The notes under the pieces were generated by a model that was given only the letters and a program-made list of their open reading frames with translations, searched no databases and was not told the origin of the DNA. A program made the translations under genes and the position numbers. 64,000 nucleotides of DNA from the NCBI GenBank assembly GCA_017853275.1, contig JAFMJV010000006.1:1-64000 (forward strand), given 5' to 3'. Origin of the DNA: Chloroflexota bacterium. GTDB taxonomy: Bacteria; Chloroflexota; Limnocylindria; Limnocylindrales; CSP1-4. Positions 3,003-60,111 of the stretch are shown in pieces; within the stretch, counting starts at the first letter, position 1; each line of letters opens with the position of its first letter.

Positions 3003-3043
3003 CCCGGGCGGAGCGGACGGGGCCGCCCCGGATCGGGGGTCAG
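2999..3043. terminator. Possible bidirectional terminator between convergent genes
   Basis: Outer arms CTGACCC (2999-3005) and GGGTCAG (3037-3043) can pair, with an inner GGGG-ccg-CCCC stem. The stop codons of both convergent genes lie inside the arms. No U-tract is present, so function as a terminator is uncertain. Confidence 0.35.
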
Positions 3044-38911: not shown

Positions 38912-38967
38912 CTCCACCTGCAGCCACCTCCGCACGTCGCCACCGGCCCGAACGCCGGGGTCGAACG

Positions 38968-45356: not shown

Positions 45357-45422
45357 CCGGGTGCCCTCCAGCGTCGCCGGCCGCTCGTCGCGGGCCTTTC
45401 TGCCCGCCGGCCACGTTGCGCC

Positions 45423-45428
45423 ATCGTA
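45423..45428 (-). promoter_or_regulatory. Candidate -10 element (TACGAT)
   Basis: Minus-strand TACGAT, 66 bases upstream of the tandem mutarotase start at 45356. Confidence 0.35.
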
Positions 45429-45464
45429 GCGGCCGGCCACCCCGGGCGAGGGGCCGCCGCGGCG

Positions 45465-46289
45465 TCAGCCGGCGAGGACGATCGCGACGCCGGCGACCAC
45501 GAGGAGAGCGGCGGCGATCGCGCGCCGGGGCGGCATCGTCCGGCTCCGCCACGCCTCGATGCCGAGCGCGAAGAGCGGCGTGGTGGCGACGAGCGTCTGG
45601 ACCACGACCGGGCTCCCCTGCTGGACGCCGAGGATGATGAAGACGAAGGAGACGGTCGTGAGGAGGGAGCGGAAGAGGAGGCGCGGCGTGGCCCGGAGCG
45701 GGATGTTCCGGGGCGGGAAGAGCGCGAGACAGACGACGGCCGCGAGCGCGGTCCGGACCACGTAGGTCTCCACGAGCCCGACCCCTTCGTCGTAGAGCAT
45801 CCGGGTGGCGATCGTGAGGAGGCCGTTCCCCGCGGCTGCGGCGATCGTCCGCCACAGGACGCCGCTCCGGCCCATCTCCCCGAAGGCGCCCTGGAGCGCC
45901 CAGATGACCCCCACGGAGACGACGACCGCGGCGACTGCCTGGCCGGGCTGGAAGACCCCGGGGAGGACGATCGCGGCCGCCACCGCCGCCACGATCGGTG
46001 CGAGCGCGGAGGCGGTCGTCGTCGAGGAGGCCGCGCCGGCGTCGAAGAGGTCCCAGACGGCGATCGCGGTGATGACCATGAGCGCCACCGAGACGAGGTG
46101 GAGGACGACGATCCAGGGGCTCCAGACCCACGCCACGAAGGGCGCGAAGGGGAGGAGGATCAGGCAGTTCGTGACGTAGAGCGCACCGATCAGCTGGCGC
46201 GCCGGGTAGCGCGCGGTGAGCCCCTTGTTGATCACCGCCTGCGCCGCGTTCGTGACGGAGGCGAGGAGGCCGAAGAGGACGGCGATCAT
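45465..46289 (-). CDS. EamA/DMT-family transporter
   Basis: A 274-residue membrane protein with about ten helices in two EamA-like halves: LFGLLASVTNAAQAVINKGLTARYP at the N-terminus and LLTTVSFVFIILGVQQGSPVVVQTLVATTPLFALGIEAWR near the C-terminus. The family exports or imports metabolites such as amino acids and sugars. Start ATG 46289 is chosen because the first helix begins there; upstream in-frame residues are Pro/Ala-rich. It is divergent from the gene at 46442 and shares a symmetric promoter-like element with it. Confidence 0.82.
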   Translation of the reverse strand: MIAVLFGLLASVTNAAQAVINKGLTARYPARQLIGALYVTNCLILLPFAPFVAWVWSPWIVVLHLVSVALMVITAIAVWDLFDAGAASSTTTASALAPIVAAVAAAIVLPGVFQPGQAVAAVVVSVGVIWALQGAFGEMGRSGVLWRTIAAAAGNGLLTIATRMLYDEGVGLVETYVVRTALAAVVCLALFPPRNIPLRATPRLLFRSLLTTVSFVFIILGVQQGSPVVVQTLVATTPLFALGIEAWRSRTMPPRRAIAAALLVVAGVAIVLAG

Positions 46290-46441: not shown

Positions 46442-47557
46442 ATGAGCGAGACACAGATCGCGTTCACCGAGCTGCTCGGCCGGCGCGTCCGGCTCGGCCG
46501 CTGGGAGGACCAGAAGATCTCCACGTGGCGGAAGATCCACGAGGCGATCGACGAGCGGCGCTGGGACGACGCCGCGGAGCTCGGTGCCTACTTCATCGAC
46601 GAGGCGTCCGTCTGCTTCGCGATCTACCGCCAGTGGATCCCGGACCTGAACGGGTTCCTCAAGGATCGCGGGGTGGACGCGGCGATCATCAAGGCCCGCA
46701 ACGACCAGGCGGTCGCGGTGGCGCGCCACCCGGACGGACGCGCGTGGCACCCGCGCCGCCAGTGGGACCGCTTCCTGTCGGAGATGCAGGCCTTCACTGC
46801 CGCGGTCTACCGCGAGCAGGCGGACCTCGCGAAGGAACGGATGGCCACCGCCAAGGAGACCTGGCGGCAGTGCCATGACCGCGACGTGGACCACACGTAC
46901 GGGCTCATGTCGCTCGTCAAGGAGCAGCTCGGCGAGCCCGCGATCCGCGACATGTACGACCGGGTCCTCCTGCCGCTCTTCGCGTGGCGCTACGAGAAGT
47001 TCGACATCGACAAGCACCCCTGGGACGAGGCGCTCGAGACGCTCATGCTCGTCGCCTGCGAGGCGATGCGCGGCCACCTCGTGGGGCCGGAGCGGACCGG
47101 CGACTTCGAGCTCATCGAGACCGAGGACCGCTACATCCTCCGCTTCGATCCCTGCGGGTCCGGCCAGCGCACGATCCGGGGCGACTGGATCGAGGGGACG
47201 CCGGACCGGACGCAGCCGCCCTACAGCTGGACGGTGAGCACCGAGCCCGCGCCGATGAACCACTTCCAGAAGGGCGTCTGCCTCTACTGCATCCACTGCA
47301 TCGTCCTCATGGAGGAGATGCCGATCGACCGCTTCGGCTACCCGGTGCGGGTGGTGGACCCGCCGCTCTACCCGGATACGGACCGGGACCCGAACGTGCG
47401 CCAGAAGTGCCAGTGGACGATGTTCAAGGATCCCACCGCGGTCCCCGAGGAGTTCTACACCCGGGTCGGCCGCACGAAGCCCGCCGCCTTCGGCAGCCGG
47501 GCCCAGGGGGCGAAGGAGCTCCCGGTGGTCAACGTGGGGATGCCCGGCGCCGGCTGA
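46442..47557 (+). CDS. Cys-rich protein of unknown function, paralogue of 57894-59000
   Basis: A 371-residue cytoplasmic-looking protein, no signal or membrane segment. The N-terminal 200 residues look helical (FTELLGRRVRLGRWEDQ, DEASVCFAIYRQWIPDLNGFL, LETLMLVACEAMRGHL). The second half has two motifs shared with the paralogue: FDPCGSGQRTIRGDWIEGT and CLYCIHC followed by VRVVDPP and KCQWT, with a final GRTKP. The clustered Cys and His residues suggest a metal or redox site. I do not recognise the family. The downstream convergent neighbour is a fuconolactonase-like hydrolase, as in the second copy's operon, so a shared pathway is likely. Confidence 0.75.
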   Translation: MSETQIAFTELLGRRVRLGRWEDQKISTWRKIHEAIDERRWDDAAELGAYFIDEASVCFAIYRQWIPDLNGFLKDRGVDAAIIKARNDQAVAVARHPDGRAWHPRRQWDRFLSEMQAFTAAVYREQADLAKERMATAKETWRQCHDRDVDHTYGLMSLVKEQLGEPAIRDMYDRVLLPLFAWRYEKFDIDKHPWDEALETLMLVACEAMRGHLVGPERTGDFELIETEDRYILRFDPCGSGQRTIRGDWIEGTPDRTQPPYSWTVSTEPAPMNHFQKGVCLYCIHCIVLMEEMPIDRFGYPVRVVDPPLYPDTDRDPNVRQKCQWTMFKDPTAVPEEFYTRVGRTKPAAFGSRAQGAKELPVVNVGMPGAG

Positions 47558-47578
47558 GCCCCTCCCGCGCAGGAACGA

Positions 47579-47614
47579 CGAAGCCCCCCGTGCCGGCCGG
47601 CACGGGGGGCTTCG
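47579..47614. terminator. Perfect 36-base palindrome, bidirectional terminator
   Basis: Two exactly complementary 18-base arms (beginning CGAAGCCCCCCG) meet at a central CCGG|CCGG between convergent genes 46442-47557 and 47624-48493. The stem would be very stable, and runs of C and G flank an A/T-containing base. There is no U-tract. The strongest hairpin in the window. Confidence 0.75.
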
Positions 47615-47623
47615 CTTCCCGGG

Positions 47624-48493
47624 TCAGATCCGGAAGATCCGCTCCGCGTTCGCGCTGAAGAGCTTCACCTGGTCGTTCTCGGAGAAGTCGCGGATGATCT
47701 CCGCGTACGCATCCAGGACGTCCGGGTAGGAGCTGTAGAGGCGGTCCACCGGCCAGTTCGTGCCGAAGAACGAGCGGTCGATCCCGAAGGTCTCGATGCA
47801 GTAGAGGACCCACGGGCGCCAGCTCTCGACCGTCCACTTCGGGTCGCACATCCCGAGCCCGGAGATCTTGATCACCACGTTCGGCGCCTGGGCGAGGTTC
47901 GCCAGCTCGCGCTTCCACATCGCGAAGTACTCGGCATCGCGCTTGCGCGGGAAGCCCGCGTGGTCGAGCGAGATGACGATGTCGGGGAAGGCCTGCGCGA
48001 GGTCCTTGATCGAGGCGTAGGACTCCGGCGAGGAGTCGAGGCAGGCGACGAGATCGTGCTTCCGGAGGTGCTTGTACCCCGCCCGCCAGGCGGGATCGCG
48101 CGGGTAGTCACCCGCTCCGAAGTCGCGGATCCCGCGCATGTTCCGGAACTGCATGTGGCGCTCGATCACCTCCTCGGCGTCGGGCTGCGCGAGATGGCAC
48201 TCGGCCACGATCCCGTGCGGATGGCCGAGCCGGTCCGCGAAGGCCTGGAGCCACTTCGTCTCCTCGACCGGGTCCGCGATGCCGAGCGCGGCCTGGACGT
48301 GGATCGACTTCTTCACGTTCGAGAAGCGGGTCTCCGCGACGTACTCGTCCGCCCAGTAGCGCTGCGCCTGGATCCCCTCGATGTCGCCGAGGATCGGGTG
48401 CTTCCAGCCCGGCTCCAGCCAGACGTAGCGGAGGTTCGGGTTCTGCATATCCGAGAAGTGGATGTGGGTATCGACGAACGGGAGTCGGGCCAT
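47624..48493 (-). CDS. Amidohydrolase 2 family (L-fuconolactonase-like) hydrolase
   Basis: A 289-residue TIM-barrel hydrolase. Metal HxH is in FVDTHIHFSD at the N-terminus, then AECHLAQPD, ISLDHAG (His-Asp) and FFGTNWPVDRLYSSYPDV with the catalytic Asp, as in fuconolactonases. Family members open sugar lactones or decarboxylate aromatic acids. It is a paralogue of 56851-57810: both share VHVQA/VHIEA, VEET, and ISGLGM followed by WTVES/WTVDS. GAGGAGGAAGAGG precedes the ATG. Confidence 0.87.
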   Translation of the reverse strand: MARLPFVDTHIHFSDMQNPNLRYVWLEPGWKHPILGDIEGIQAQRYWADEYVAETRFSNVKKSIHVQAALGIADPVEETKWLQAFADRLGHPHGIVAECHLAQPDAEEVIERHMQFRNMRGIRDFGAGDYPRDPAWRAGYKHLRKHDLVACLDSSPESYASIKDLAQAFPDIVISLDHAGFPRKRDAEYFAMWKRELANLAQAPNVVIKISGLGMCDPKWTVESWRPWVLYCIETFGIDRSFFGTNWPVDRLYSSYPDVLDAYAEIIRDFSENDQVKLFSANAERIFRI

Positions 48494-48539
48494 CCTGATC
48501 CTCTTCCTCCTCTGGTGCGGGTGGCGTGCGGCTGGCGTG

Positions 48540-48545
48540 AGGGTA
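48540..48545 (-). promoter_or_regulatory. Candidate -10 element (TACCCT)
   Basis: Minus-strand TACCCT, 46 bases upstream of the amidohydrolase start at 48493, suggesting this gene has its own promoter separate from the isomerase gene upstream. Confidence 0.35.
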
Positions 48546-48560
48546 GCGCCGCGGACGGCG

Positions 48561-49427
48561 TCAGGGAAGGTTCGCGCGCAGCCAGCGGACGCTGCGCTCG
48601 ATCATGCCCAGCTCGTCCACGTCCGCGCCGCCGAGCGAGGCGAGCTCCACCGCCACCGGGCCGTCATAGCCCGCGGCGGCGAGGATCGCGACGATCTCGC
48701 CGAGCGGCGCGACCCCCTCACCGAGCGCGACGGAGAGCGGCCCGCCCCAGACGGTGGGGTCCGGCGTGGGCGGATGGTCCTTGAGCTGGACGAGGAGGGT
48801 CCGCGGGGCAAGGAGCCGGGTCCCCTCCAGCATCTCGTCCCCGACCCGGATGAGGTTCACGTTGTCCAGGGTGATGCCGAGGTTGGGGAGGCCGGCCCGC
48901 GCGATGACCTCGAGGAGATCCTCCGCGCGCAGGTCGCCGTGGTTCTCGATCGCGAGCGCGAGCCCGACCGCGCCGGCGCGCTCCGCCGCCCGGCGGGTGG
49001 GCGCCACGAGCCGGTCCACGAGGAGGGCGGCGGGCTCCGTCCCGCGCGAGGCGGGGCTGCCGAGGGTGATCCTCATCACCCGGTGGCCGAGCCGCGCGGC
49101 GAGCGCGATCCAGCGCGCGAGGTGGTCCTCCGCGGCCGGGGTCCGGCCGCCATCGAGGCCATGGAAGGCGCCCTCCGGCCAGGGATGCCCCCACGAGAAG
49201 CCGATCGCGAGGTCGCCCGCCTCGGCGAAGGTCGCAGCGTCGATCGTCTCCGGCTCGGGCAGGTAGCAGGTCTCGAGCCAGATCTCCGCCGCGCCGGTCG
49301 TCCGCGCGTGGGCGAGGGCGGGCGCCGGGACGAGCGGCCACGGGGCGTGGCCCGCGTGCGGGACCTCGCCGGAGCGGATCTCGCCGTAGCGGCGGTGGTA
49401 GGAGTAGCTGTCGATGCCGGCGCGCAT
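48561..49427 (-). CDS. Sugar phosphate isomerase/epimerase-family TIM-barrel protein
   Basis: A 288-residue xylose-isomerase-like TIM barrel (AP endonuclease 2 fold). It starts MRAGIDSYSYHRRYGEIR, with metal-site residues in ALAIENHGD (Glu), LGITLDNVNL (Asp), VQLKDH (His) and AVELAS (Glu). The family includes epimerases, 2-keto-myo-inositol dehydratases and ribulose isomerases. The likely substrate is a keto sugar. GAGGAGCC lies just before ATG 49427; upstream in-frame residues are unlike the family. Confidence 0.83.
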   Translation of the reverse strand: MRAGIDSYSYHRRYGEIRSGEVPHAGHAPWPLVPAPALAHARTTGAAEIWLETCYLPEPETIDAATFAEAGDLAIGFSWGHPWPEGAFHGLDGGRTPAAEDHLARWIALAARLGHRVMRITLGSPASRGTEPAALLVDRLVAPTRRAAERAGAVGLALAIENHGDLRAEDLLEVIARAGLPNLGITLDNVNLIRVGDEMLEGTRLLAPRTLLVQLKDHPPTPDPTVWGGPLSVALGEGVAPLGEIVAILAAAGYDGPVAVELASLGGADVDELGMIERSVRWLRANLP

Positions 49428-49476
49428 GGCTCCTCGCGGGTGACGGATCCGGAGCGGCGGGGTCCGCCGCCCGCCC

Positions 49477-49482
49477 ATCCTA
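49477..49482 (-). promoter_or_regulatory. Candidate -10 element (TAGGAT)
   Basis: Minus-strand TAGGAT, 49 bases upstream of the sugar isomerase start at 49427. Confidence 0.35.
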
Positions 49483-49550
49483 GCGAGCCGGGCCGGCCGC
49501 CCCGCCCTCCCCCGCGCACCCGGGCCGCGCCGGGCCCCCGGAGCCTGTGC

Positions 49551-49556
49551 TAGCGT
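49551..49556 (+). promoter_or_regulatory. Candidate -10 element (TAGCGT)
   Basis: TAGCGT 48 bases before the ATG at 49605; the operator-like palindrome starts four bases downstream. Confidence 0.4.
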
Positions 49557-49559
49557 CCT

Positions 49560-49575
49560 CTGGAAACGTCACCAG
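49560..49575 (+). promoter_or_regulatory. Operator-like palindrome CTGGAAACGTCACCAG
   Basis: Imperfect palindrome CTGG-nn-ACGT-nn-CCAG spanning the predicted start of transcription. Its left half, with the preceding T, is the TCTGGAAACG also found at 14756-14768 (reverse) and 62728-62740. A CG centre is typical of LacI-family operators. Confidence 0.5.
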
Positions 49576-49604
49576 TCGGACCGGGGCAGGAGGAGGCGCG
49601 GACG

Positions 49605-50315
49605 ATGATCCAGGTGCAGGGGCTCGCAGGCCGCGTGGCGGTGGTCACCGGCGGCGGTCGCGGGATCGGCAAGGCGACCGCGGCGGCCCTCGTCGCGAAC
49701 GGCGCCCGGGTGGCGGTCATCGACATCGTCCCGCCCACCACGCCGGACGTCCTCAACCTCACCTGTGACGTCTCGGACCCCGCGCAGGTGGAGGCCGCGA
49801 TCGGGCGCGTGGAGGCGGAGCTCGGGCCGGTCTCCGTGGCCGTGATGGCGGCGGGGATCTTCCCCACCGCGCCGATCGAGGAGACCACGCTCGAGAGCTG
49901 GCAGCGCTGCCTGGACGTGAACCTGACGGGGAGCTTCCTCGTGGCGAAGCGTCTCCTCCCCGCGATGCGCGAGGCAGGTTACGGCCGGCTCATCTTCCTC
50001 GGCTCGTCCGCGGGGAAGGCAGGCGGCGCACGGGCGATGTCCTCGTACGCCGCCTCCAAGGCGGGCGTGATGACGCTCGCCAAGGCGATCGCCAACGAGT
50101 ACGCGAAGACCGGCGTCACCTCGAACGCGCTCGCGCCCACGATGATCGACACGCCGATGATCGACGGCCAGCGTGAGCTCGTCTCCCGGATCCCCGTGGG
50201 CCGGCTCGGCAAGCCGGAGGAGGTGGCGGCGCTCATCTGCTTCCTCGCCTCGGAGGACGCGGGCTACATCACCGGCGAGATCACGGATATCAACGGCGGC
50301 TTCTTCGTCGACTGA
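49605..50315 (+). CDS. Short-chain dehydrogenase/reductase (SDR)
   Basis: A 236-residue classical SDR with TGGGRGIG near residues 13-20, catalytic Ser in FLGSSAGKAGG, YAASK for Tyr/Lys and a typical end DINGGFFVD. It is the first gene of a plus-strand operon reaching 54410. AGGAGGAGG lies upstream of the ATG. The substrate is likely a sugar-derived alcohol. Confidence 0.9.
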   Translation: MIQVQGLAGRVAVVTGGGRGIGKATAAALVANGARVAVIDIVPPTTPDVLNLTCDVSDPAQVEAAIGRVEAELGPVSVAVMAAGIFPTAPIEETTLESWQRCLDVNLTGSFLVAKRLLPAMREAGYGRLIFLGSSAGKAGGARAMSSYAASKAGVMTLAKAIANEYAKTGVTSNALAPTMIDTPMIDGQRELVSRIPVGRLGKPEEVAALICFLASEDAGYITGEITDINGGFFVD

Positions 50316-50330
50316 TCGGGAGGACGGACG

Positions 50331-51098
50331 ATGGGACCGGAGCGCCGGATCGCGGTCGTCACCGGGGCGGCGAGCGGGATCGGCCACGCGACCGCGGCGC
50401 TCCTGCTGGCGCGCGGCCATGCCGTCCTCGCCACGGACCTCGTGGCGGCCGGTCTTGCGCCGCTCGCCGCCGCCGGCGCCCGGACGCTCGCCGCGGACCT
50501 TGCCACGGATGCCGGCCGCGCGGCCGTGGTGGCGGCAGCGGACGCGCTGATCGCCGCGGAGGGCGCGCCGCTCGACTGGCTCGTGAACGCCGCCGGGCTG
50601 ATCGTGCTCAAGCCGATCGGCGAGGTGACGGGGGACGATCTGCGCCATGTCTTCGATGTGAACGTGGGCTCCGCCTTCGTCCTCACCCAGCGGCTCGGCG
50701 AGCGGATGCGCGACGGCGGTGCGATCGTCTCCTTCAGCTCGCCGTCCGCGAAGTTCGTGGCCACCCCGGAGGCCGCCGCCTACGCGCTCACGAAGGCCGC
50801 GGTCTCCCAGGTCACCCGCTCGTTCGCGAAGGCGTACGCGCCGCGCGGCATCCGGGTGAACGCGCTGAGCCCGGGGATCACGGATACGCCGATGCAGGCG
50901 CGCGTCCTGCGCGAGGTCTCCGCGCGCCGGGGGATCCCGGAGGAGCAGCTCGCGGCCGAGCGGCTGGCGAGCGTCCCGATGGGCCGGAGCGCGCCGCCGG
51001 AGGAGATCGCGGGCGTCGTCGCATGGCTCCTCTCGGACGAGGCGGCCTACATGACGGGCCAGGTGGTGAACGTGGATGGCGGGATGGTGATGTGGTGA
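50331..51098 (+). CDS. Short-chain dehydrogenase/reductase (SDR)
   Basis: A 255-residue SDR with TGAASGIG near residues 11-18, Ser in SFSSPSAKF, YALTK for Tyr/Lys and end NVDGGMVMW. It resembles the SDR at 7940 in the long loop before the C-terminal helix (RVLREVSARRGIPEEQLAAERLASVPMGR). GGGAGGACG precedes the start, and its stop overlaps the GTG of the creatininase gene. Confidence 0.9.
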   Translation: MGPERRIAVVTGAASGIGHATAALLLARGHAVLATDLVAAGLAPLAAAGARTLAADLATDAGRAAVVAAADALIAAEGAPLDWLVNAAGLIVLKPIGEVTGDDLRHVFDVNVGSAFVLTQRLGERMRDGGAIVSFSSPSAKFVATPEAAAYALTKAAVSQVTRSFAKAYAPRGIRVNALSPGITDTPMQARVLREVSARRGIPEEQLAAERLASVPMGRSAPPEEIAGVVAWLLSDEAAYMTGQVVNVDGGMVMW

Positions 51099-52210
51099 GC
51101 GACGTGGAGGTCCGGATCGACCGGCTGCGGCCGCGCGAGGTCGCGGAGCGGATGGCGGCAGGGCCCGTGGCCTGGATCCCGCTCGGGGCGGTGGAGTACC
51201 ACGCCGAGCACCTCCCCTTCGGCACGGACGGCTTCACCGCCACGGCCGTGGTGGAGCGGGCGGCACGGATCGCGGGCGGGGTCGTCCTCCCGTGGTCCGC
51301 GCTCACGATCGGCACGCTCGCGCTCCCCTGGAGCCTGCGCTACGACGCGGACCTCGTGGAGCGCGCGCTCCGCTCCACGATCGAGCAGGCGGCGGCCCAC
51401 GGGGCGCGCGTCGTGGTGGTCCATACCGGCCACGGCCCGCTCGACCTCAACCACCTGATCAAGCGCGTCTGCGCGGATACGGAGGCGCGGATCGGCGCGA
51501 CCCCCGGGAACGCGGGCTTCCGCGCCTACGGCCTCTGCTACCTGGAGCTGAACGCGGCGCGCGGGGTCCAGCTGGGGACGGACTGGCCGGTGGCGGTGGA
51601 TCACGGCGCGGTCATGGAGACGAGCTGGACGCTCGCGGTGGCGCCGGAGCTCGTCCGGCTGGAGCGGCTCCCGGAGGACCCGGACGGGACGATGCTCGCG
51701 GTCTACGGCCCGAACCCCCGCACGCGCGCCTCCGCGGAGACGGGCGAGGCGCAGGTCCAGGGGGCGGCGGAGCTCCTCGCCGCGCGCGTCCAGGAGCTCC
51801 TCGCCGGGGGCCGGATCGATCCGCTCGCGGACCTGCGCGGCTTCGTGGCGCGCTACTGGCCGGAGCCGCTGGAGCTGGGTGCGCGCGCGGGGATGGCGGG
51901 GAGCGCCGCGATCACGCTGCGCAACGTGGGACCCGTCTCGCGCTACGTGACCGGGTGCGCCCTGCGCATCGATGGGGTCCCGGTCGATCCGGCGGGGATG
52001 GTCCTCTCCAACCCCACGGTCGGTGAGACCGGGGTCCCCTTCCCGGTGACGACGCTCGGGCCGGAGGCGGGCTTCTACGTGCGCCGGCTCCAGGAGGCCG
52101 AGCTGCGGATCCCGGTGGCGCTCGGGCCAGGGCCGGTCGCGGTGGAGCTGACGCTCGGCCTCGGCGGGGTGACGGAGACGACGCTCCGGGCGACCCTCCG
52201 GCCCGCGTGA
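51095..52210 (+). CDS. Creatininase-family amidohydrolase with extra C-terminal domain
   Basis: A 371-residue protein. Residues 1-250 match the creatininase fold: IPLGAVEYHAEHLPFGTDGFTA (metal Glu, His, Asp), VVVVHTGHGP and DHGAVMETSWTLAVAPELV. Typical members have about 250 residues; here about 110 residues follow, beta-rich (AITLRNVGPVSRYVTGCALRIDGVPVDP, VAVELTLGLGGVTETTLRATL), resembling a small beta-sandwich. The family hydrolyses cyclic or linear amides. GTG start overlaps the SDR stop, and its stop overlaps the deacetylase start (GTGA). Confidence 0.82.
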   Translation: MSDVEVRIDRLRPREVAERMAAGPVAWIPLGAVEYHAEHLPFGTDGFTATAVVERAARIAGGVVLPWSALTIGTLALPWSLRYDADLVERALRSTIEQAAAHGARVVVVHTGHGPLDLNHLIKRVCADTEARIGATPGNAGFRAYGLCYLELNAARGVQLGTDWPVAVDHGAVMETSWTLAVAPELVRLERLPEDPDGTMLAVYGPNPRTRASAETGEAQVQGAAELLAARVQELLAGGRIDPLADLRGFVARYWPEPLELGARAGMAGSAAITLRNVGPVSRYVTGCALRIDGVPVDPAGMVLSNPTVGETGVPFPVTTLGPEAGFYVRRLQEAELRIPVALGPGPVAVELTLGLGGVTETTLRATLRPA

Positions 52211-53355
52211 GGCACGACCTCGTCGTCACCGGCGGGACGGTGATCGACCCCGCATCCGGCCTTCACGGGCCGGCGGATGTCGCGATCGCGGGCGGCCGGA
52301 TCGCGGCGGTGGGGCCGGGGATCGGGACCGCGGATGCGGCGGATGCGATCGATGCCACGGGCTGCCTCGTGGTCCCCGGGCTCGTGGACCTTCACGTCCA
52401 CGTCTACTGGGGCGTGGCCGATCTCTCGATCCGGCCCGGCCCGAACGACCTGGAGCGCGGCGCCACGACGATCGTGGACGCGGGCTCGTCCGGCGCGAAC
52501 ACCTTCCCGGGCTTCCGGCGCTACGTCATCGAGCCGTTCGAGGGACGGATCCTCGCGCTCCTGAACATCAGCGCGATGGGCCAGATCGACCCCTTCCTCG
52601 GCGAGCTCCACGACGCGCGCTACCTGATCGCCGAGCGGGCCGCGGAGGTCGCGCTCGCGCACCCGGACCGGATCGTGGGCTTCAAGGTCCGGCTCACGGA
52701 GACGCTCACCGGCCCGAACGGCCGGATCGCCCTGGAGCGCGCGGTGGAGGCGGGGACGATCGCGAACCTCCCCGTCATGGTCCACGTCGGCGGCTCCACC
52801 ACGACGACGGACGAGATCATGGGGATGCTCCGCCCGGGCGACATCGTCACCCACGCCTTCACGGACCGCCCGAACGGGATCTTCCGCGATGACGGGCGGG
52901 TCCATGACGCGGCGCTGGACGCACGGCGGCGCGGCGTCCGCTTCGACGTGGGCCACGGCGCGGGCTCCTTCCGCTTCCGGCGCGCGGAGGCGGCGCTCGC
53001 GGACGGCTTCCCGCCGGACACGATCAGCTCCGACCTCCACCGCTTCAACGACGAGGGGCCGGTCTTCGACCTCGTCACGACGCTCTCCAAGCTCCTCCAC
53101 CTCGGCCTGCCGCTCGAGACCGTGATCGCGATGGCCACCAAGGCACCCGCCGCCGCGATCGGCCGGAGCGGCGCCTTCGGCACCCTCGCACCGGGGGCGG
53201 AGGCGGACGTCGCGGTGCTCCGGCTCGACGAGGGACCGGTCACCTTCTCCGACGCCTACGGCGACACGATCGAGGGTCGCCGGCGGCTCGTCCCGGTGGT
53301 GACGCTCCGCCAGGGCCGGAGGGTGATCGTGGGCAGCCACGGCAGCGCCCGGTGA
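52207..53355 (+). CDS. Amidohydrolase/deacetylase-family metallohydrolase
   Basis: A 382-residue enzyme of the dihydroorotase/deacetylase branch. It has HDLVVTGGTVIDPASGL at the N-terminus, HxH in GLVDLHVHVYWG, Lys in IVGFKVRLTE (the bridging carboxylated Lys position), VMVHVGG, IVTHAFTDRPNG and the catalytic Asp in TISSDLHRF. Related enzymes act on N-acetyl or cyclic imide substrates. Coupled by four-base overlaps to creatininase upstream and phosphotriesterase-like gene downstream. Confidence 0.85.
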   Translation: MRHDLVVTGGTVIDPASGLHGPADVAIAGGRIAAVGPGIGTADAADAIDATGCLVVPGLVDLHVHVYWGVADLSIRPGPNDLERGATTIVDAGSSGANTFPGFRRYVIEPFEGRILALLNISAMGQIDPFLGELHDARYLIAERAAEVALAHPDRIVGFKVRLTETLTGPNGRIALERAVEAGTIANLPVMVHVGGSTTTTDEIMGMLRPGDIVTHAFTDRPNGIFRDDGRVHDAALDARRRGVRFDVGHGAGSFRFRRAEAALADGFPPDTISSDLHRFNDEGPVFDLVTTLSKLLHLGLPLETVIAMATKAPAAAIGRSGAFGTLAPGAEADVAVLRLDEGPVTFSDAYGDTIEGRRRLVPVVTLRQGRRVIVGSHGSAR

Positions 53356-54410
53356 GCGCACCCGGCGGGATCACCGAGCCGGGGATGGCGCTCACGGTCC
53401 TCGGGCCCGTCCCGGTCTCCTCGCTCGGGATCACGCTCACCCACGAGCACCTCCGGATGGATGCAACGCCGCTGCGCATCCTCCACGGCGCGAGCGGGAC
53501 GGCGAGCGGGCCCTTCGACCTCGCCGCGGCGGCGGAGGCACGCTGGGATCCGGCGAGCCACCCGGACAACTATCGATTCACCCGGGACGATCTCGTGGCG
53601 GACGAGCTGCGCGAGATCGCGGCGCTCGGGGTCGGCTGCGTCGTCGATCTCACGCCGCCCGCGCTCGGCCGCAGCGCCCGCTCGCTCGTCGGCCTCTCCC
53701 AGGCCACGGGGGTCCACGTCGTCATGGGGACGGGGCTCTATCTCGCGGCCACGCACGCGCCGTGGGTCGCGCGGGCGAGCATCGCGGAGATCGCGGATGC
53801 GCTCATCGCCGAGATCCGGGACGGTGAGGCGGAGACGGGCGTCCGGCCGGGGATCATCGGGGAGATCGGGACCTCCGACCCGGTCGATCCGGCGGAGCTG
53901 AAGGTCCTCGATGCCTGCGCGATGGCGGCCTGGCAGACCGGGCTCGCGATCTCCATCCACCTCCACCCGTGGGGCCGGACCGGGCTCACGGTCCTCGACC
54001 GGCTGATCGGCGCCGGGGTCCCGCCGGCGCGGATCGTCCTCGGGCATCTCTCCCCGGCCTGGGACGACGCGCGCTACCTGGGCACGCTCCTCGCGAGCGG
54101 CGTCTTCCTCGGCTTCGACCTCTTCGGCTTCGACCACTCCCTCCTCGGGCCGGGACGATGGCCGCCGGGAGATGCCGCCGTCGCCGGGACGGTCGCCCGG
54201 CTCGTGGCGGAGGGATACGCGGACCGGATCCTCCTCTCCGGGGATGTGGGGGTCCGGACGCGCCTGCGCGCCTACGGCGGCTGGGGATACGGCCACCTCC
54301 TCCGCCATGTCGTCCCGCTCCTCCGCGGGCTCGGCACGTCCGTGGCGGACCTGGAGACGATCCTCGCGGGGAACCCCGCCCGGCTCCTCGCAGTGGGCGG
54401 GCCGGTCTAG
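53352..54410 (+). CDS. Phosphotriesterase-family metal-dependent hydrolase
   Basis: A 352-residue relative of the first gene in the window. Metal HxH in LTHEHLRMD near residues 29-36, bridging residue Glu in IIGEIGTSD, then SIHLHPWG, LGHLSPAWDD and LLSGDVGV (catalytic Asp). As in the first gene, Glu replaces the carboxylated Lys. It probably hydrolyses a lactone or ester made by the operon's other enzymes. GTG start overlaps the deacetylase stop. It is the last gene of the operon and converges on the MFS gene. Confidence 0.86.
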   Translation: MSAPGGITEPGMALTVLGPVPVSSLGITLTHEHLRMDATPLRILHGASGTASGPFDLAAAAEARWDPASHPDNYRFTRDDLVADELREIAALGVGCVVDLTPPALGRSARSLVGLSQATGVHVVMGTGLYLAATHAPWVARASIAEIADALIAEIRDGEAETGVRPGIIGEIGTSDPVDPAELKVLDACAMAAWQTGLAISIHLHPWGRTGLTVLDRLIGAGVPPARIVLGHLSPAWDDARYLGTLLASGVFLGFDLFGFDHSLLGPGRWPPGDAAVAGTVARLVAEGYADRILLSGDVGVRTRLRAYGGWGYGHLLRHVVPLLRGLGTSVADLETILAGNPARLLAVGGPV

Positions 54411-54417
54411 CCGGGGC

Positions 54418-55743
54418 TCAGGCAGCGGCCCCGGCGGGCGGAGCAGACGGCGTGACGGGGCCGGCCGCCCCGGCCCGCACGAAGAGGAGGAGACCGGCGA
54501 TCCCCACCGCCACGCCCACGAGGACCCCCGCCTCGATCCCCACGAGCGAGGCGACCGTGGCGCCGAGGAGCGGGGCGACGATCCCGGCGAGGTTCGTGGC
54601 GGAGGAATCGAGGCCGGAGAAGGTCGCGATCCGGTCGCGCGGGATCCGCCCCATCAGCTCGTCGAAGAGCGCGAGGTCCGCACCGGAGCCGAAGAACGAG
54701 CCGACGATCGAGAGGAGGACGACGAGCTCCAGGCTCCGGGTCGCCACGACGAGCGCGGGGGCGGCCGCCGCGACCGCGAGGGAGACGAGGAGGACGGTCC
54801 GGCCCCCGAGGCGTCGTGCGGCTCGCCGCCACCAGGCATAGCCGATCACCGTCGCGAAGGCGTTGATCATCGCGAGGCTTCCGATCCAGGCGTCCGAGGC
54901 GTCCAGGATCCGGACGTAGAAGAGCGGCAGGAGCGCGGCGACCATGCGCAGGCTGCCGGAGTAGAGCCCCTTGCGGAGGACGAAGCCGAGGAAGGGCCGC
55001 CGGTCCGGCGCAGCCCCCGGGGCCCGTCCGGCGCTCGCCACCCCGGAAGCGGGGGTCCGCGGGGCCGGGGCGGCGAGGACGAGCCGCCCGCACAGCCACC
55101 AGCTCGCGATCCCCGAGATGCCCGCGGCGAGGAAGAGGAGCTGGTAGCCGAGCGGGAAGACGAGGGCGTCGAGGAGGATCCCGGCGAGGCCGGTGAGGAC
55201 CGCGGTGGCGAGACCCATGAGCGCCCAGCGGCGGCCGAGAAGATCGAAGCGCCCGCGGGGGCCGGCCACGCCGTCCATGACGAGCGGGAAGACGACCTGG
55301 GTGAGCGTCTGCGGGACGGTGGCGAGGAGGATGAGGGCGAGGCAGGCGGGGATCACCCAGGCCGGCGCGACGACCGCGATGACGAGCGCGAGCGCCCCGT
55401 AGAACGCGTTCGTGAGGAGGCGTGAGCGCGCCCACCAGGTCACCTTCCGCGCGCTCGGCTCGAGGAGCCGGCCGAAGGGCATGGCGAGGACGAGCCCCCC
55501 GATCGCGGGGAGCGTGGTGATCAGGCTCACCTCGAGCGGCGTCGCCCCGGCCCGGACGAAGAAGACCGGGACGAAGGTCATCGCCGCCACGATCAGCCCG
55601 GAGACGACCGAATCGGCCTGGAGGAGCTCGTAGTTCCTGCGCTCCACGGGGCCCGCCGCCCGGGGTGCCGCGAGGCGGCGCCAGCCACCGGCCGCCCGCC
55701 ACGCGACGCGCGGCAGGCCGTGCCCCGGGCTCCCTCCGTCCAT
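54418..55743 (-). CDS. MFS transporter
   Basis: A 441-residue membrane protein with twelve predicted helices in two halves. The first helices follow DSVVSGLIVAAMTFVPVFFVRAGAT and GGLVLAMPFGRLLEP (the loop 2-3 region); the second half includes VLLSIVGSFFGSGADLALFDELMGRIP. The basic loop PSARKVTWWARSRL matches the family's cytoplasmic loop. Substrate unknown; it may be an exporter or uptake system for a pathway intermediate. It is last in the minus-strand operon, 19 bases after the oxidoreductase. Confidence 0.84.
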   Translation of the reverse strand: MDGGSPGHGLPRVAWRAAGGWRRLAAPRAAGPVERRNYELLQADSVVSGLIVAAMTFVPVFFVRAGATPLEVSLITTLPAIGGLVLAMPFGRLLEPSARKVTWWARSRLLTNAFYGALALVIAVVAPAWVIPACLALILLATVPQTLTQVVFPLVMDGVAGPRGRFDLLGRRWALMGLATAVLTGLAGILLDALVFPLGYQLLFLAAGISGIASWWLCGRLVLAAPAPRTPASGVASAGRAPGAAPDRRPFLGFVLRKGLYSGSLRMVAALLPLFYVRILDASDAWIGSLAMINAFATVIGYAWWRRAARRLGGRTVLLVSLAVAAAAPALVVATRSLELVVLLSIVGSFFGSGADLALFDELMGRIPRDRIATFSGLDSSATNLAGIVAPLLGATVASLVGIEAGVLVGVAVGIAGLLLFVRAGAAGPVTPSAPPAGAAA

Positions 55744-55762
55744 CGCCCGGTCCGGGCTCAGG

Positions 55763-56818
55763 TCAGCGGATGCGGATGATCGTCCCCGTCTGCGCGCTCC
55801 GCTCCATCGCGTCCAGGACGTCCACGACGCGCGCGCCGAGCTCGCCCGGCGAGCGGTTCTCCTGCGTCTTCCCGGCCACGAGGTCGACGAAGCGGTCGAT
55901 CACCGCGGCGAAGGACCACTCGCCGTGGGGGATCTCGCGGATGATGTCCTCGCCGGAGGCCTTGGAGCGGCGGACGGTGTTCCGGTCCATGTCGATCTGG
56001 AGCTGCCCCTCCGAACCGGTGACGGTGAGGACGACCTGGTGGTGGTAGCCGAAGGTCGCGGGCGGGAAGGCGGCCCCGGAGACCGTGCCGGTGATCCCGT
56101 TCTCCAGCTTCAGCGCGATCGCGTCGTGGAGCTCCACCGCCTCGCCGTCGCCATGGTTCGTGAAGGCGGCCACCTGGGTCGGCTTCTCGTCGATGAGGCG
56201 GAAGAGGAGGCCGAGGCCGTGGGTGAGCTGCCCCTGGCCGTAGCCGCCGCCGCTGATCTGCGGGTCACCCCAGGTCTCGGCGCGGGGCGGGGAATCGGTG
56301 GAGGAGCCCGGGTAGGCGCGCCCGGAGGTGAGGAGGTCGCGGACGCCCGAGGCCATCACGCAGGTGACGTGCTCCAGCCGGCCCACGCCGCCATCCTCGC
56401 GCAGGAGCCGGCGCGCGGTCTCCACCGCCTCCGTCTCGTTGTAGCCGTAGCAGACCATGAGGACGAGCCCGCGCTCCCGGGCGAGCGCCTCCAGCGCCCA
56501 CGCGTCCGCGGGATCCTTGACGAAGGGCTTCTCCGCGAGGACGTGGATGCCCGCCTCCAGCGCGGCGCGGATCTGCTCCGCACGCGGCCCCACGGGACCC
56601 GGGATCGAGACCATGTCCGGCTTCGCGGCGATCACCTCGCGCCAGTCCGTGGTGGCCCGGGCGAAGCCGAACTTCGTGCGGGCGAGCTCGAGGAGCTCCG
56701 GGTCGCGGCGGCAGACGATGAGCGGCTCGACGTCGTCCCGGCGGACGAACCAGGGGAGGTGGTGGCCGATCCCCCACGTCCCTGCGCCGATCATCCCGAG
56801 GGTGAGCTTCCGATCCAT
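55763..56818 (-). CDS. Gfo/Idh/MocA-family oxidoreductase
   Basis: A 351-residue dehydrogenase with GMIGAGTWGIGHHLPWF at residues 8-24, the E-K-P motif in LAEKPFVKDPADAW, and SGGGYGQGQLTHGLGLL in the C-terminal domain. It is the close paralogue of 3040-4128, sharing block order and KFGFARATTDW/KFGFQKATTRW. It follows the fuconolactonase-like hydrolase by 32 bases, so it likely takes the product of that hydrolase or precedes it in the pathway. Confidence 0.88.
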   Translation of the reverse strand: MDRKLTLGMIGAGTWGIGHHLPWFVRRDDVEPLIVCRRDPELLELARTKFGFARATTDWREVIAAKPDMVSIPGPVGPRAEQIRAALEAGIHVLAEKPFVKDPADAWALEALARERGLVLMVCYGYNETEAVETARRLLREDGGVGRLEHVTCVMASGVRDLLTSGRAYPGSSTDSPPRAETWGDPQISGGGYGQGQLTHGLGLLFRLIDEKPTQVAAFTNHGDGEAVELHDAIALKLENGITGTVSGAAFPPATFGYHHQVVLTVTGSEGQLQIDMDRNTVRRSKASGEDIIREIPHGEWSFAAVIDRFVDLVAGKTQENRSPGELGARVVDVLDAMERSAQTGTIIRIR

Positions 56819-56850
56819 CCGTGGTCTCCGTGCTGTGGGCTGGGTGGGGT

Positions 56851-57810
56851 TCAGATCCGGTAGAGGCGGCGGGCGTTCCCGGAGAGCATCGCCTCCTGCT
56901 CCGCCCGGGAGAAGCCGGCGCGGGCGATCACCCAGCGCCATGCGTCCACCTGGCGGATGTAGGAGGAGAAGACGAGGTCGACCGGCCAGTTCGTGGCGAA
57001 CATGATCCGATCCGTCCCGAAGGCCTCGATCGCGTGGAGGACCCAGGGGGTGATGGAGTCGACCGTCCAGCCGTGCTCGTACATCCCGAGGCCGCTCACC
57101 TTGCAGGCGACGTTCGGCTCCTTCGCGATCTCCGTCATCTCCGCGCGCCAGTGGGCGAAGTGCTCCGCGTCGCGCCGGATCGGGATCCCGGTATGGCCGA
57201 GGATCATCTGCGTGCCGGGGAAGGCGCGGGCCGCGTCCCGGGCGCCGAGGAGGGCGCCCGGCGAGGCGGTGATCTCGTAGGAGAGGTCGCGCGCGCCGAG
57301 GCCGGTCATCGCCTCCGTGAAGGCCGGGGTCCGCCAGTCGGCCGGGTGCACCCGGGGGCGGAGCCCACGGACGCGGCCGGAGGCGGCGAGGTGGCGATCG
57401 AGCTGCGCGGCCACCCCCGGACGGGTGACGTCGGCGTAGACGACGATCGCGTCCGGCATCCCGACCCGCTCGGCGACCTCCTCGAGCCAGACCGTCTCCT
57501 CGACCGGGTCGTCCGCGCCGCAGTCGGCCTCGATGTGGACGGAGCCCACCACGTTCGCGCCGTAGAACTCCCGGAGGAGGCGCTCCATCGTCCAGTCCTG
57601 GCGGAGGATCTTGTATTCGCCCAGGGTCGCCGTGGCATCCACGACCGGGGCGATCGAGCCGTCCGGCTTCACCTCGTCGCGGATCCAGCGGTAGGGGAAG
57701 CGGGCGAGCTCCCAGATGTGGTGGTGGGCCTCGATGAAGGGGATGGAACGATCGACCTCGCGGGCGATCGCCTCCTCGAGCGCGCGGTCGTCGTCCATCG
57801 TCCGGCTCAT
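56851..57810 (-). CDS. Amidohydrolase 2 family (L-fuconolactonase-like) hydrolase
   Basis: A 319-residue TIM-barrel hydrolase, paralogue of 47624-48493 with about 30 more N-terminal residues. The metal motif is FIEAHHHIWELARF, followed by VHIEADCGADDPVEE, ILGHTGIPI and MFATNWPVDLVFSSY with the catalytic Asp. Probable sugar-lactone hydrolase. GGAGGAGGAGG lies before ATG 57810. It is preceded by the Cys-rich protein gene, the same partner type as near 47624. Confidence 0.87.
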   Translation of the reverse strand: MSRTMDDDRALEEAIAREVDRSIPFIEAHHHIWELARFPYRWIRDEVKPDGSIAPVVDATATLGEYKILRQDWTMERLLREFYGANVVGSVHIEADCGADDPVEETVWLEEVAERVGMPDAIVVYADVTRPGVAAQLDRHLAASGRVRGLRPRVHPADWRTPAFTEAMTGLGARDLSYEITASPGALLGARDAARAFPGTQMILGHTGIPIRRDAEHFAHWRAEMTEIAKEPNVACKVSGLGMYEHGWTVDSITPWVLHAIEAFGTDRIMFATNWPVDLVFSSYIRQVDAWRWVIARAGFSRAEQEAMLSGNARRLYRI

Positions 57811-57893
57811 CTGGGTCCTCCTCCTCCATCCCGGCCCCGCCCGGGGGTCCGCGTCACGGTGCAGTCTGCCCGAGCCGCGGGCGCCGTGCGGGC

Positions 57894-59000
57894 TCAGGCG
57901 GGCCGGCCGTCCCGGTCCACCATGGGCAGCTGCGGCTTCGTGTGACCGATCCGTGCATACGCGCTCTCGGGGATCGCGTCGAGCGACTTGTAGACGGTCC
58001 AGCTGCAGCGCTTCCGCGTGGACTCGGCGTCCGCGCTGCCACCCCAGATCGGCGGGTCCACGACCCGGACCGGGTGACCCCAGCGCTCGGCGGGGAGCTT
58101 CTCCAGCGCGAAGCAGCAGTGTGCGCAGTAGTAGCAGATCCCCTCCTCGTTCCAGGCCCAGTCGTGGCGCTCCTGCGTGACACCGAACGCGTAGGGGGCG
58201 AGGACGCGCGAGCCGGTCCCCTCGATCTCGTCGCCGCGCATCGAGCGGCCGCCGGAGCCGCAGGGATCGAAGCTCACGACGTAGCGGTCCTCGTGCTCCT
58301 GGACGTCGAGCGACCCGTCCCGCTCCGGCCCGCACAGGTGGGCGCGCATCGCCTCCAGGACGAGGTAGAGGTTCCGGTCCACCGTGCTCTCGTAGGGCTG
58401 GAGGCGGACATCGAAGGCCATGTAGCGCTCCTGGATGTAGGGCTCCAGGACGGCGCGATAGCAGTCCTCCAGGCGCGCCTCGCCGAAGCGCGCCGCCACG
58501 AAGGCGAGGATCCCGGCCATCAGGTCCGCCGAGCGGTCATGGAGACGGCGCCAGTGCTCGGAGAGCGCATCCAGGAGCGGGTCCGCCTCCGCCACCGTCA
58601 CCTCGTAGGCACGGATCCGGTTCCCGATCCGGCCGGCCATCGCGCCGAGCTCCTCCCAGCGCGTGACCGGGTCGTGGGGAAGCCCGTCCGGCCAGGCGAG
58701 GAGCTGCGCGAGCCGCGCGATCTCCGCGGCCCGCTCCGCCTCCGGGACGCCGTTCGCCCCGAGCCAGTCGAGGAAGCCCGCCGTCCAGACCTTGTAGATG
58801 ACGTGGACGACCTTCGCCTCCTCCATGAAGGAATCGACGAGCTGGGCCGCGGCCTCGCGCCGGCCGGCCTTCAGGCCGAAGTCATCCCCGGCCTCCGCGA
58901 GCGCGGCGCGCGCGGCATCCAGGGTGGGGACGGCCTGCTCGGCCCACGTCCCGGTCCGGACCCGCTTGCCGATCGCGGCCGACCACTCGAGGCGGGTCAT
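57894..59000 (-). CDS. Cys-rich protein of unknown function, paralogue of 46442-47557
   Basis: A 368-residue protein, no signal or membrane segment. It shares with the paralogue FDPCGSGGRSMRGDEIEGT, CYYCAHCCFALEKLPAERWGHPVRVVDPP, RCSWT and the ending GHTKP; both also have the helical first half (TRLEWSAAIGKRVRTGTWAEQ, VLEAMRAHLCGPERDG). The conserved C-x2-C-x-H-C cluster is suggestive of metal or iron-sulfur binding. It starts 31 bases after the sugar permease and precedes the hydrolase gene, inside the sugar ABC operon. No family name is offered. Confidence 0.77.
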   Translation of the reverse strand: MTRLEWSAAIGKRVRTGTWAEQAVPTLDAARAALAEAGDDFGLKAGRREAAAQLVDSFMEEAKVVHVIYKVWTAGFLDWLGANGVPEAERAAEIARLAQLLAWPDGLPHDPVTRWEELGAMAGRIGNRIRAYEVTVAEADPLLDALSEHWRRLHDRSADLMAGILAFVAARFGEARLEDCYRAVLEPYIQERYMAFDVRLQPYESTVDRNLYLVLEAMRAHLCGPERDGSLDVQEHEDRYVVSFDPCGSGGRSMRGDEIEGTGSRVLAPYAFGVTQERHDWAWNEEGICYYCAHCCFALEKLPAERWGHPVRVVDPPIWGGSADAESTRKRCSWTVYKSLDAIPESAYARIGHTKPQLPMVDRDGRPA

Positions 59001-59031: not shown

Positions 59032-60111
59032 TCAGGCGGCGGACTTCGTGAGCCGGATGCGGAGCTGGTCCGCGCCGACGGCGATAAGCAGAAGGGCGCC
59101 CGTGGCGACCTCGATCCAGAACTGCTGGACGCCGAGCTGGACGAGCCCGTTCTTCAGGACGCCGACGATGAGCACGGCAAGGATCGTGCCCACGATGCTT
59201 CCGCGACCACCCGCGAGGGAAGCGCCACCGAGGACGACCGCGGTGACGACATCGAGCTCCAGACCGCTCGCGGCGGTGATCGCGGCCGCTCCCACCTGGG
59301 AGAGGAGGATCATCCCGGCGAGCCCGGCGAGGGCCGCGGAGAGCATGAAGCCGATGAAGATCGCGCGGTTCGTCCGGATCCCGGCGAGCCGCGCGGCCGT
59401 GGGGCTCGCCCCGATCGCGTACATCGACCGTCCGTAGGTCGTGTAGCGGAGGATGACGAAGAAGAGGATCGTCACCGCGAAGAGGATGAGGATCGTGATC
59501 GGGATCCCCGCGATCTGACCGAGACCGAGCGTCTCGAAGCCATCGATGTTGATCGTCTGGCCATTGCCGAGGACCTTCGTGAGGCCGCGGAAGATCGCGA
59601 GCGTGCCGAGCGTGGTGATCAGGGCGTTGATCCGGAAGGTGGTCACGCAGACCGCGTTGACGGTGCCCACGAGGAGGGCGCCGATGATCGCGATGAGGAT
59701 CCCTGCCTCCAGGGGAAGGCCGAGCGCGAAGGGCGTCTTGGCGGCTTCCGGGCTCGCCGTCGCCACCGCGAGGAGCATCCCCGTGAACGCGGCGATCGAC
59801 GCCACGGAGAGGTCGAACTGGCCGGAGATGAGGAGGAGCGTGGCAGGCGCGGCCACGATCCCGATCCGCACGACCTGCTGGAGGATGACGATGAGGTTCC
59901 GGTCGTTGAAGAAGTAGGGCGAGGTGATCGAGAAGAAGATGAAGAGGCCGACGAGGACGATCGCGAGGGCCGCCGTGTCCGGCACGACGAACCGTGAGCG
60001 GCGGCGGGGGACCGCCGCCGTGGCGGCCTCCACGGCACCCGCCCCCGTCTCGAGCGCAGGCGGTGCCGCCCGCCCGGGCGCTCCGCCGAGATCCTCGTCC
60101 GCCACGGTCAC
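59032..60111 (-). CDS. Sugar ABC transporter permease (RbsC type)
   Basis: A 359-residue permease of the BPD_transp_2 family with about nine helices from residue 47 onward. Blocks include PATLLLISGQFDLSVASIAAFTGML, INALITTLGTLAIFRGLTKVL, GASPTAARLAGIRTNRAI and GGASLAGGRGSIVGTILAVLIV. GTG start overlaps the ATPase stop (GTGA). It completes the second sugar importer with 60108 and 61644. Confidence 0.92.
   Translation of the reverse strand: MTVADEDLGGAPGRAAPPALETGAGAVEAATAAVPRRRSRFVVPDTAALAIVLVGLFIFFSITSPYFFNDRNLIVILQQVVRIGIVAAPATLLLISGQFDLSVASIAAFTGMLLAVATASPEAAKTPFALGLPLEAGILIAIIGALLVGTVNAVCVTTFRINALITTLGTLAIFRGLTKVLGNGQTINIDGFETLGLGQIAGIPITILILFAVTILFFVILRYTTYGRSMYAIGASPTAARLAGIRTNRAIFIGFMLSAALAGLAGMILLSQVGAAAITAASGLELDVVTAVVLGGASLAGGRGSIVGTILAVLIVGVLKNGLVQLGVQQFWIEVATGALLLIAVGADQLRIRLTKSAA

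Follow-up and report, generated by a model that had tools for sequence, protein, structure and literature searches.

The window analysed here, a 64,000-nucleotide stretch of DNA from a Chloroflexota bacterium, encodes two cysteine-rich proteins that belong to a real and previously unnamed bacterial protein family, which sits in sugar and sugar-acid catabolic clusters in several phyla. We use FAM as a working name for this family, call its two members in the window FAM-A and FAM-B, and number residues according to FAM-A. The tightest genomic partner of FAM is a zinc-dependent alcohol dehydrogenase (ADH) of the medium-chain dehydrogenase/reductase (MDR) superfamily, and the residues that the family conserves suggest that it is plausibly a new kind of metal-dependent enzyme. 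Conserved, absent from database models, and closely tied to a single dehydrogenase, the family points to a step overlooked in present annotation.

A family with a conserved Cys/His core

46442..47557 (+): FAM-A, clade A, 371 amino acids; open reading frame (ORF) and translation, alignment, tree, and AlphaFold2 model
57894..59000 (-): FAM-B, clade B paralogue, 368 amino acids, within an ABC transporter operon; translation, tree, and core-domain model

An original prediction made for this DNA had described these two ORFs as homologous proteins with shared motifs, and the comparison bears this out: FAM-A and FAM-B share 34% identity across 360 aligned columns (E = 2e-75) and are homologous along their whole length, with the second copy lying on the minus strand. 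Judged by sequence, the similarity is far beyond chance. Motifs common to both are FDPCGSG..R..RGD.IEGT, C-x2-C-x-H-C, VRVVDPP, and G.TKP, and a search of the 2.89-Mb assembly found exactly two FAM copies in the genome. The same prediction called the proteins ones of unknown function, which also stands in that they match no known family. Searches with single sequences and with profiles gave nothing above noise in Pfam-A or NCBIfam for FAM-A, FAM-B, and very distant relatives, and zero matches among PDB sequences. Rhodococcus plasmid members are annotated in RefSeq as hypothetical only, and no named homologue was found in the open-access literature.

In an alignment of about 52 family members, four cysteines are nearly or fully invariant (Cys238, 51/51; Cys323, 52/52; Cys286, 51/52; and Cys283, 50/52), as are Tyr282 (52/52), His285 (51/52), Lys329 (50/52), and Glu226 (49/52, the rest being Asp or Arg). 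The C-x2-C-x-H-C cluster that had drawn attention to these proteins is thus conserved only in part: Cys283, His285, and Cys286 are kept in 50 to 51 of the 52 sequences, whereas its first cysteine, Cys280, is a cysteine in only 40 of 52 and is not conserved. Both window copies carry the family signature, which consists of an upstream helical region followed, in order, by Cys238, Y-C-x-H-C (282-286), and Cys323, with each position found in 50 to 52 of the aligned members.

Wider profiles recovered proteins of about 500 amino acids with two core domains, three of them in G663 (L108, L109, and L110) and one in G545 (L111). All four second domains of these tandem proteins retain the four cysteines, Glu226, and Lys329, and have Phe or Leu in place of His285. 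Because the second domains keep the cysteines and lose the histidine, we propose that the four cysteines would hold a metal and that His285 would be catalytic; a metal-binding or active-site role for these residues is plausible, and with it the new metal enzyme that the prediction had suggested. In an observation apart from this, two of the three G663 tandem proteins adjoin pairs of acyl-CoA dehydrogenase-like genes.

A scan of genome contigs yielded 25 FAM loci in Chloroflexota, Acidimicrobiia, Solirubrobacteraceae, Euzebyaceae, Salinibacterium, and metagenome-assembled genomes labelled Acidobacteria. Within the window's own class, FAM occurs in 6 of 177 genomes, and four besides the window's genome have both types. 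The wider profiles added diverged full-length members (G425 and G368) and 220-amino-acid forms (G278, G589, G480, G507, and G715). Members of the superfamily in Rhodococcus are WP_011600302.1 (R. jostii RHA1 plasmid pRHL3), WP_226949923.1 (R. pyridinivorans SB3094), and WP_065493512.1 (R. opacus 1CP). These hypothetical proteins have the Cys/His core in common with FAM; the RHA1 form, however, is without the N-terminal region found in FAM, and its neighbours are a 2-oxoacid dehydrogenase complex, an ADH, and lpdA. Two FAM copies are interrupted, one by an in-frame TGA (L013, 17370-18194, minus strand) and the other by a frameshift (L036, 9992-11115, plus strand), and these are either sequencing errors or decaying genes.

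Structure prediction gives a helical N-terminal region and an alpha/beta C-terminal domain. The AlphaFold2 model of full-length FAM-A, built from 26 sequences, reached a pLDDT of 90.1 and a pTM of 0.88, and the core-domain model of FAM-B reached a pLDDT of 78. In the modelled C-terminal domain, a strand is followed by FDPC, YCxHC lies at the start of a long helix, and the final cysteine is predicted at the start of a strand. Foldseek returned no match at E <= 0.001 for the full model against the PDB (best E, 0.91) or against viral models (BFVD), nor for the core model against the PDB (best E, 1.0). Three candidate relationships were considered and rejected. One tandem relative gave a weak B12-binding_2 match that fell short of the cut-off (E = 0.0008) and was judged to be a helical-repeat resemblance. 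The other two, V4R (PF02830) and ATC_hydrolase (PF14196), were prompted by the cysteine pattern; neither gave a Pfam match, and hhalign probabilities with FAM were 0.02 to 0.2% and about 0.1%, respectively, compared with 48.6% when these two weakly similar families were aligned with each other.

Genomic partners across phyla

Evidence for the metabolic setting of FAM comes from the genes around it, which were called with a codon-usage script and then clustered. Within about 10 kb of the 21 clade-A loci, a lactonase of the Amidohydro_2 or phosphotriesterase (PTE) family was present at 17, an ADH at 16, and an isomerase-like gene at 16; an L-rhamnose mutarotase (RhaM) was found at 10, an enolase-type dehydratase at 7, and a thiamine pyrophosphate (TPP)-dependent E1 at 7. 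The MDR-type ADH directly follows FAM in 13 loci, several of them near relatives, with gaps of -4 to +6 bp; this partner had not figured in the original prediction. These associations agree with the sugar-acid context that had been predicted, since lactonases, dehydrogenases, and enolase-type dehydratases lie nearby in several phyla. The prediction had named absence of the hydrolase beside homologues elsewhere as a refutation, and for Amidohydro_2 itself such absence is seen at many loci, PTE-family lactonases taking its place at L017-L021, L024, and L033; a lactonase of one family or the other is nevertheless close at 17 of the 21 clade-A loci. Clade-B genes come after sugar ABC transporter genes in the window and at L013, L015, L122, L125, L126, and L129. 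At L032 (4682-6958), L037 (14049-16278), and L121, E1 alpha and beta genes accompany a free-standing lipoyl protein of 75 to 79 amino acids, with no E2 core alongside.

In Salinibacterium soli, FAM lies inside a catabolic operon that is nearly complete, with the order dehydratase-SDR-FAM-ADH-SDR-SDR-dehydratase-lactonase-PTE, where SDR denotes a short-chain dehydrogenase/reductase. The distant member in G425, from another Chloroflexota family, is found in the order MocA-SDR-MetE-like-FAM-fuconolactonase-RhaM-ABC.

FAM and the ADH also co-occur across genomes. ADH orthologues (at least 48% identity) are present in 4 of the 177 genomes of the class (G000, G062, G059, and G085), and all four carry a clade-A FAM, of which there are five carriers in total (hypergeometric P = 1e-7). 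Among 396 Actinobacteriota genomes, the ADH was detected at E <= 1e-70 in four (G451, G445, G442, and G452), every one of which is a clade-A carrier (P = 2e-7 for a 296-genome sample). This near-perfect co-occurrence supports a shared pathway rather than direct contact. The computation itself shows that the family exists, which residues it conserves, and that it is linked to ADHs, lactonases, SDRs, and dehydratases.

Proposed role and competing explanations

Uncultured Chloroflexota and Actinobacteriota from soil and the sea carry clusters for non-phosphorylative sugar use, and known reconstructions of these clusters rely on hydrolases of the fumarylacetoacetate hydrolase (FAH) family or on aldolases for the final cleavage. 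The L-rhamnose, L-fucose, and pentose pathway known as Route III provides the closest comparison. There, an SDR or MDR dehydrogenase oxidises C4 of a 2-keto-3-deoxy acid, giving a 2,4-dioxo acid that a FAH-family hydrolase splits into pyruvate and glycolate or lactate (PMC6336799). A dehydrogenase of the MDR or SDR type followed by a FAH hydrolase is the known reaction order for KDR, KDF, and KDP acids (2-keto-3-deoxyrhamnonate, -fuconate, and -pentonate) (PMC6336799, PMC10444878). FAM loci resemble the Route III pathway (PMC6336799) in having a mutarotase, a 1-dehydrogenase, a lactonase, an enolase-type dehydratase, an SDR or MDR dehydrogenase, and a sugar ABC transporter; they differ in that they are without the FAH hydrolase that the pathway has.

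FAM itself is Cys-rich, and no sequence relation to FAH was found: Pfam scans of FAM-A, FAM-B, and relatives gave no profile match to the FAH superfamily (PF01557). For the His-Glu catalytic pair that FAH enzymes use with water and a divalent metal, the invariant His285 and near-invariant Glu226 would be candidate counterparts in FAM. Searches for FAH, DHDPS, and HpcH genes in 19 carrier genomes found none less than 7 kb from FAM, in a test limited by the shortness of many contigs. Only three cases came nearer than 20 kb: two of HpcH, one a 22-bit match 7.7 kb away and the other at about 14 kb, and one of DHDPS, at about 16 kb.

From these patterns we infer that FAM is an enzyme, together with its metal, the role of its histidine, its substrate, and its reaction. 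Our best explanation, offered tentatively, is that FAM uses a metal to transform the keto or diketo acid that the ADH would supply, probably by C-C cleavage at the point where known pathways use a FAH-family hydrolase. Under this proposal, cytoplasmic FAM enzymes would act in clusters that oxidise sugars without phosphorylation. An imported sugar would be oxidised at C1 by an SDR or a MocA enzyme, a lactonase of the Amidohydro_2 or PTE type would open the lactone, and an enolase-superfamily dehydratase would turn the aldonate into a 2-keto-3-deoxy acid. Oxidation of this acid by the partner MDR ADH, with C4 as the probable position, would then give a diketo acid. FAM would take the keto or diketo acid as its substrate and most likely hydrolyse a C-C bond in it, yielding pyruvate and a hydroxy acid. 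Cys238, Cys283, Cys286, and Cys323 may hold the metal, either zinc or an iron-sulfur cluster. Water or the substrate may be activated by His285 together with Glu226, possibly aided by Tyr282 or Lys329. We consider quite unlikely the broader proposition that FAM is a superfamily of enzymes whose fold is new and which, with a Cys4-bound metal and dependent on the histidine, act as C-C hydrolases or lyases on beta-keto or diketo acids, replacing FAH hydrolases and aldolases in many oxidative clusters of Chloroflexota and Actinobacteriota. The proposed role lends itself to testing: one carrier, Salinibacterium soli WY-16, is in culture, and further copies are available on Rhodococcus plasmids.

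Several observations weigh against C-C cleavage of a sugar-derived acid by FAM. In the wider superfamily, neighbours include acyl-CoA dehydrogenases, thiolases, and PyrK/PyrD-like, EutA-like, and glutamine-synthetase-like genes, so the reaction must extend beyond sugar acids. Other genes could supply the carbon-cleaving step, namely, the TPP-dependent E1 alpha/beta proteins with lipoyl domains at 7 of 21 loci and, in the window itself, an RraA-like aldolase (13182-13844). It is because of these diverse neighbours, the E1-lipoyl systems, and the aldolase that the proposal is put forward so cautiously. Moreover, the ADH of Chloroflexota lies in the same island as FAM yet 17 to 37 kb away, and whole-island co-transfer could give the same co-occurrence pattern, which is why we limit the interpretation of that pattern to a shared pathway. 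The Cys4 set is also not absolute, because L117 has Arg283 and Val286, and so is missing two of the cysteines, and L118/L040 has Asn283.

Other functions have to be set against C-C cleavage. FAM might instead be a metal-dependent or iron-sulfur (de)hydratase or isomerase, in which three cysteines would bind a cluster with an open site and water would be removed or moved on a sugar-acid or acyl intermediate. A Cys-rich site drawn from three separate segments plus an invariant histidine would suit such chemistry, and the relatives beside acyl-CoA dehydrogenases and thiolases stand where hydration steps occur. Nevertheless, we regard this as rather unlikely, given that sugar loci with enolase-type dehydratases already hold one or two dehydratases, that the carriers mostly appear to be aerobic, and that hidden Markov model searches gave no Fe-S family signature. 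Comparably low in our estimation is the idea that FAM is a non-enzymatic zinc protein, whether a metabolite sensor, a chaperone, or a partner subunit of the adjacent dehydrogenase. Translational coupling to the ADH would fit such a role, as would N-terminal helices that weakly resemble TPR or B12-cap and a small C-x2-C motif that looks like a zinc ligand. However, FAM has no DNA-binding or signalling domain, and its members accompany many unrelated enzymes and not always an ADH. The retention of His285, Tyr282, Glu226, and Lys329 across very large divergence, with loss of the histidine specifically in duplicated second domains, is a further point against this idea.

A role in electron transfer, with a Cys-bound Fe-S centre or a redox disulfide serving the dehydrogenases of the cluster, is suggested by the G278 member, which has an EutA/arylmalonate-decarboxylase-like gene on one side and PyrK/PyrD-like flavoprotein genes on the other. 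We think this very doubtful, since the partners in sugar loci belong to NAD(P)-dependent families, for which a carrier of this kind is not required, and ferredoxin-like motif spacing is absent. Finally, the kinship with V4R or ATC_hydrolase rejected above could persist as a very divergent domain of that kind, which strikes us as highly improbable. A rough comparison of secondary structure finds a Cys-lined site in a small alpha/beta domain in all three, and the modelled order of elements (a Cys strand, a helix begun by C-x2-C, and two strands, the last begun by Cys) is similar to that of V4R. Profile similarity is lacking, however, with profile-profile probabilities of 0.2% or less for both families, and no V4R structure was among the best Foldseek matches.

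The catabolic island and the history of the two copies

The genes that surround FAM-A and FAM-B, and those elsewhere in the window that bear on the proposed pathway, are as follows.

5972..7138 (+): enolase-superfamily sugar-acid dehydratase-like protein of the same catabolic island (Pfam MR_MLE, E = 1.8e-48)
9110..10132 (+): Zn-dependent alcohol dehydrogenase, MDR (Pfam; 51% identity to the L019 ADH)
43262..44686 (-): sugar isomerase-like protein (remote NCBIfam sulfoquinovose isomerase match, 52 bits; L-arabinose isomerase 9vf5, E = 9e-5)
44706..45440 (-): L-rhamnose mutarotase-like protein, two rhaM domains in a single ORF (Pfam rhaM, E = 5.7e-33, two stretches)
45465..46289 (-): EamA/DMT-type transporter, divergent from FAM-A (PF00892; same place in L013, L014, L015, L027, and L127)
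47624..48493 (-): Amidohydro_2 lactonase-like protein (PF04909, E = 1.5e-34), 66 bp from FAM-A, convergent
48561..49427 (-): xylose-isomerase-like TIM barrel (AP_endonuc_2; Pfam, E = 1.7e-22)
55763..56818 (-): Gfo/Idh/MocA oxidoreductase, last gene of the FAM-B operon (Pfam; 43% identity to 3040-4128, minus strand)
56851..57810 (-): Amidohydro_2 lactonase-like protein (PF04909, E = 6.5e-33), 83 bp downstream of FAM-B, same operon
59032..60111 (-): sugar ABC permease (PERM), 31 bp upstream of FAM-B (ORF; clusters with other PERM genes)
60108..61619 (-): sugar ABC ATP-binding protein, two ATPase domains by sequence (ORF; gene clustering)
61644..62669 (-): periplasmic sugar-binding protein (SBP) of the FAM-B transporter operon, by position and sequence (ORF; gene clustering)

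As predicted, a paralogous amidohydrolase lies beside each FAM copy (37% identity between the two, E = 5e-61), and the Gfo/Idh/MocA gene of the second cluster has its paralogue at 3040-4128. The second copy does sit in a sugar ABC operon, with the co-directional order SBP-ABC-PERM-FAM-lactonase-MocA; FAM-A and lactonase 47624, by contrast, do not form one operon, because they are convergent. Both amidohydrolases pass the Pfam Amidohydro_2 gathering score of 26.4 bits (120.6 bits for 47624 and 115.2 bits for 56851) and cover the whole profile. Like L-fucono-1,5-lactonase (NF052480), they match Amidohydro_2 over its full length, but their scores against that NCBIfam model (71.6 and 90.6 bits, respectively) do not reach the equivalog cut-off of 400, so they are relatives of the lactonase rather than certified members. 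The isomerase-like protein has no Pfam match, and its family also adjoins clade-A FAM in other genomes. The ADH at 9110-10132 is orthologous to the one that immediately follows FAM in Actinobacteriota.

It had further been suggested that a module was duplicated and kept, and this is the claim that fails. In the FAM tree, clade A (24 rows, support 100/98) and clade B (11 rows, support 100/99) each hold Chloroflexota and Actinobacteriota members, and because both clades span phyla, they separated long ago. At L013 and L014 the lactonase adjoins a FAM gene of the 46-kb type, yet in its own tree it groups with the window's 57-kb lactonase. Neighbours have therefore been reshuffled, and the two trees do not support block duplication of FAM with its lactonase; a PTE lactonase stands in at many loci.

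Positions 45-62633 of the window read as one large catabolic island, which contains PTE and Amidohydro_2 lactonases, three MocA genes, an enolase-type dehydratase, many SDRs, the MDR ADH, an RraA-like aldolase, several sugar ABC systems, and amidohydrolases. Adjoining the ADH is a 975-amino-acid protein with multicopper oxidase and FG-GAP repeat matches (10215-13142, plus strand), odd company for a sugar-acid cluster. A glyoxalase fused with a YCII domain is encoded at 38147-38917 (minus strand), and glyoxalase genes recur in FAM loci L028, L030-L032, and L035. Between the two FAM-bearing regions, creatininase, amidohydrolase, and PTE genes stand in a row (51092-54410, plus strand), possibly as a separate operon for a cyclic amide or lactone.

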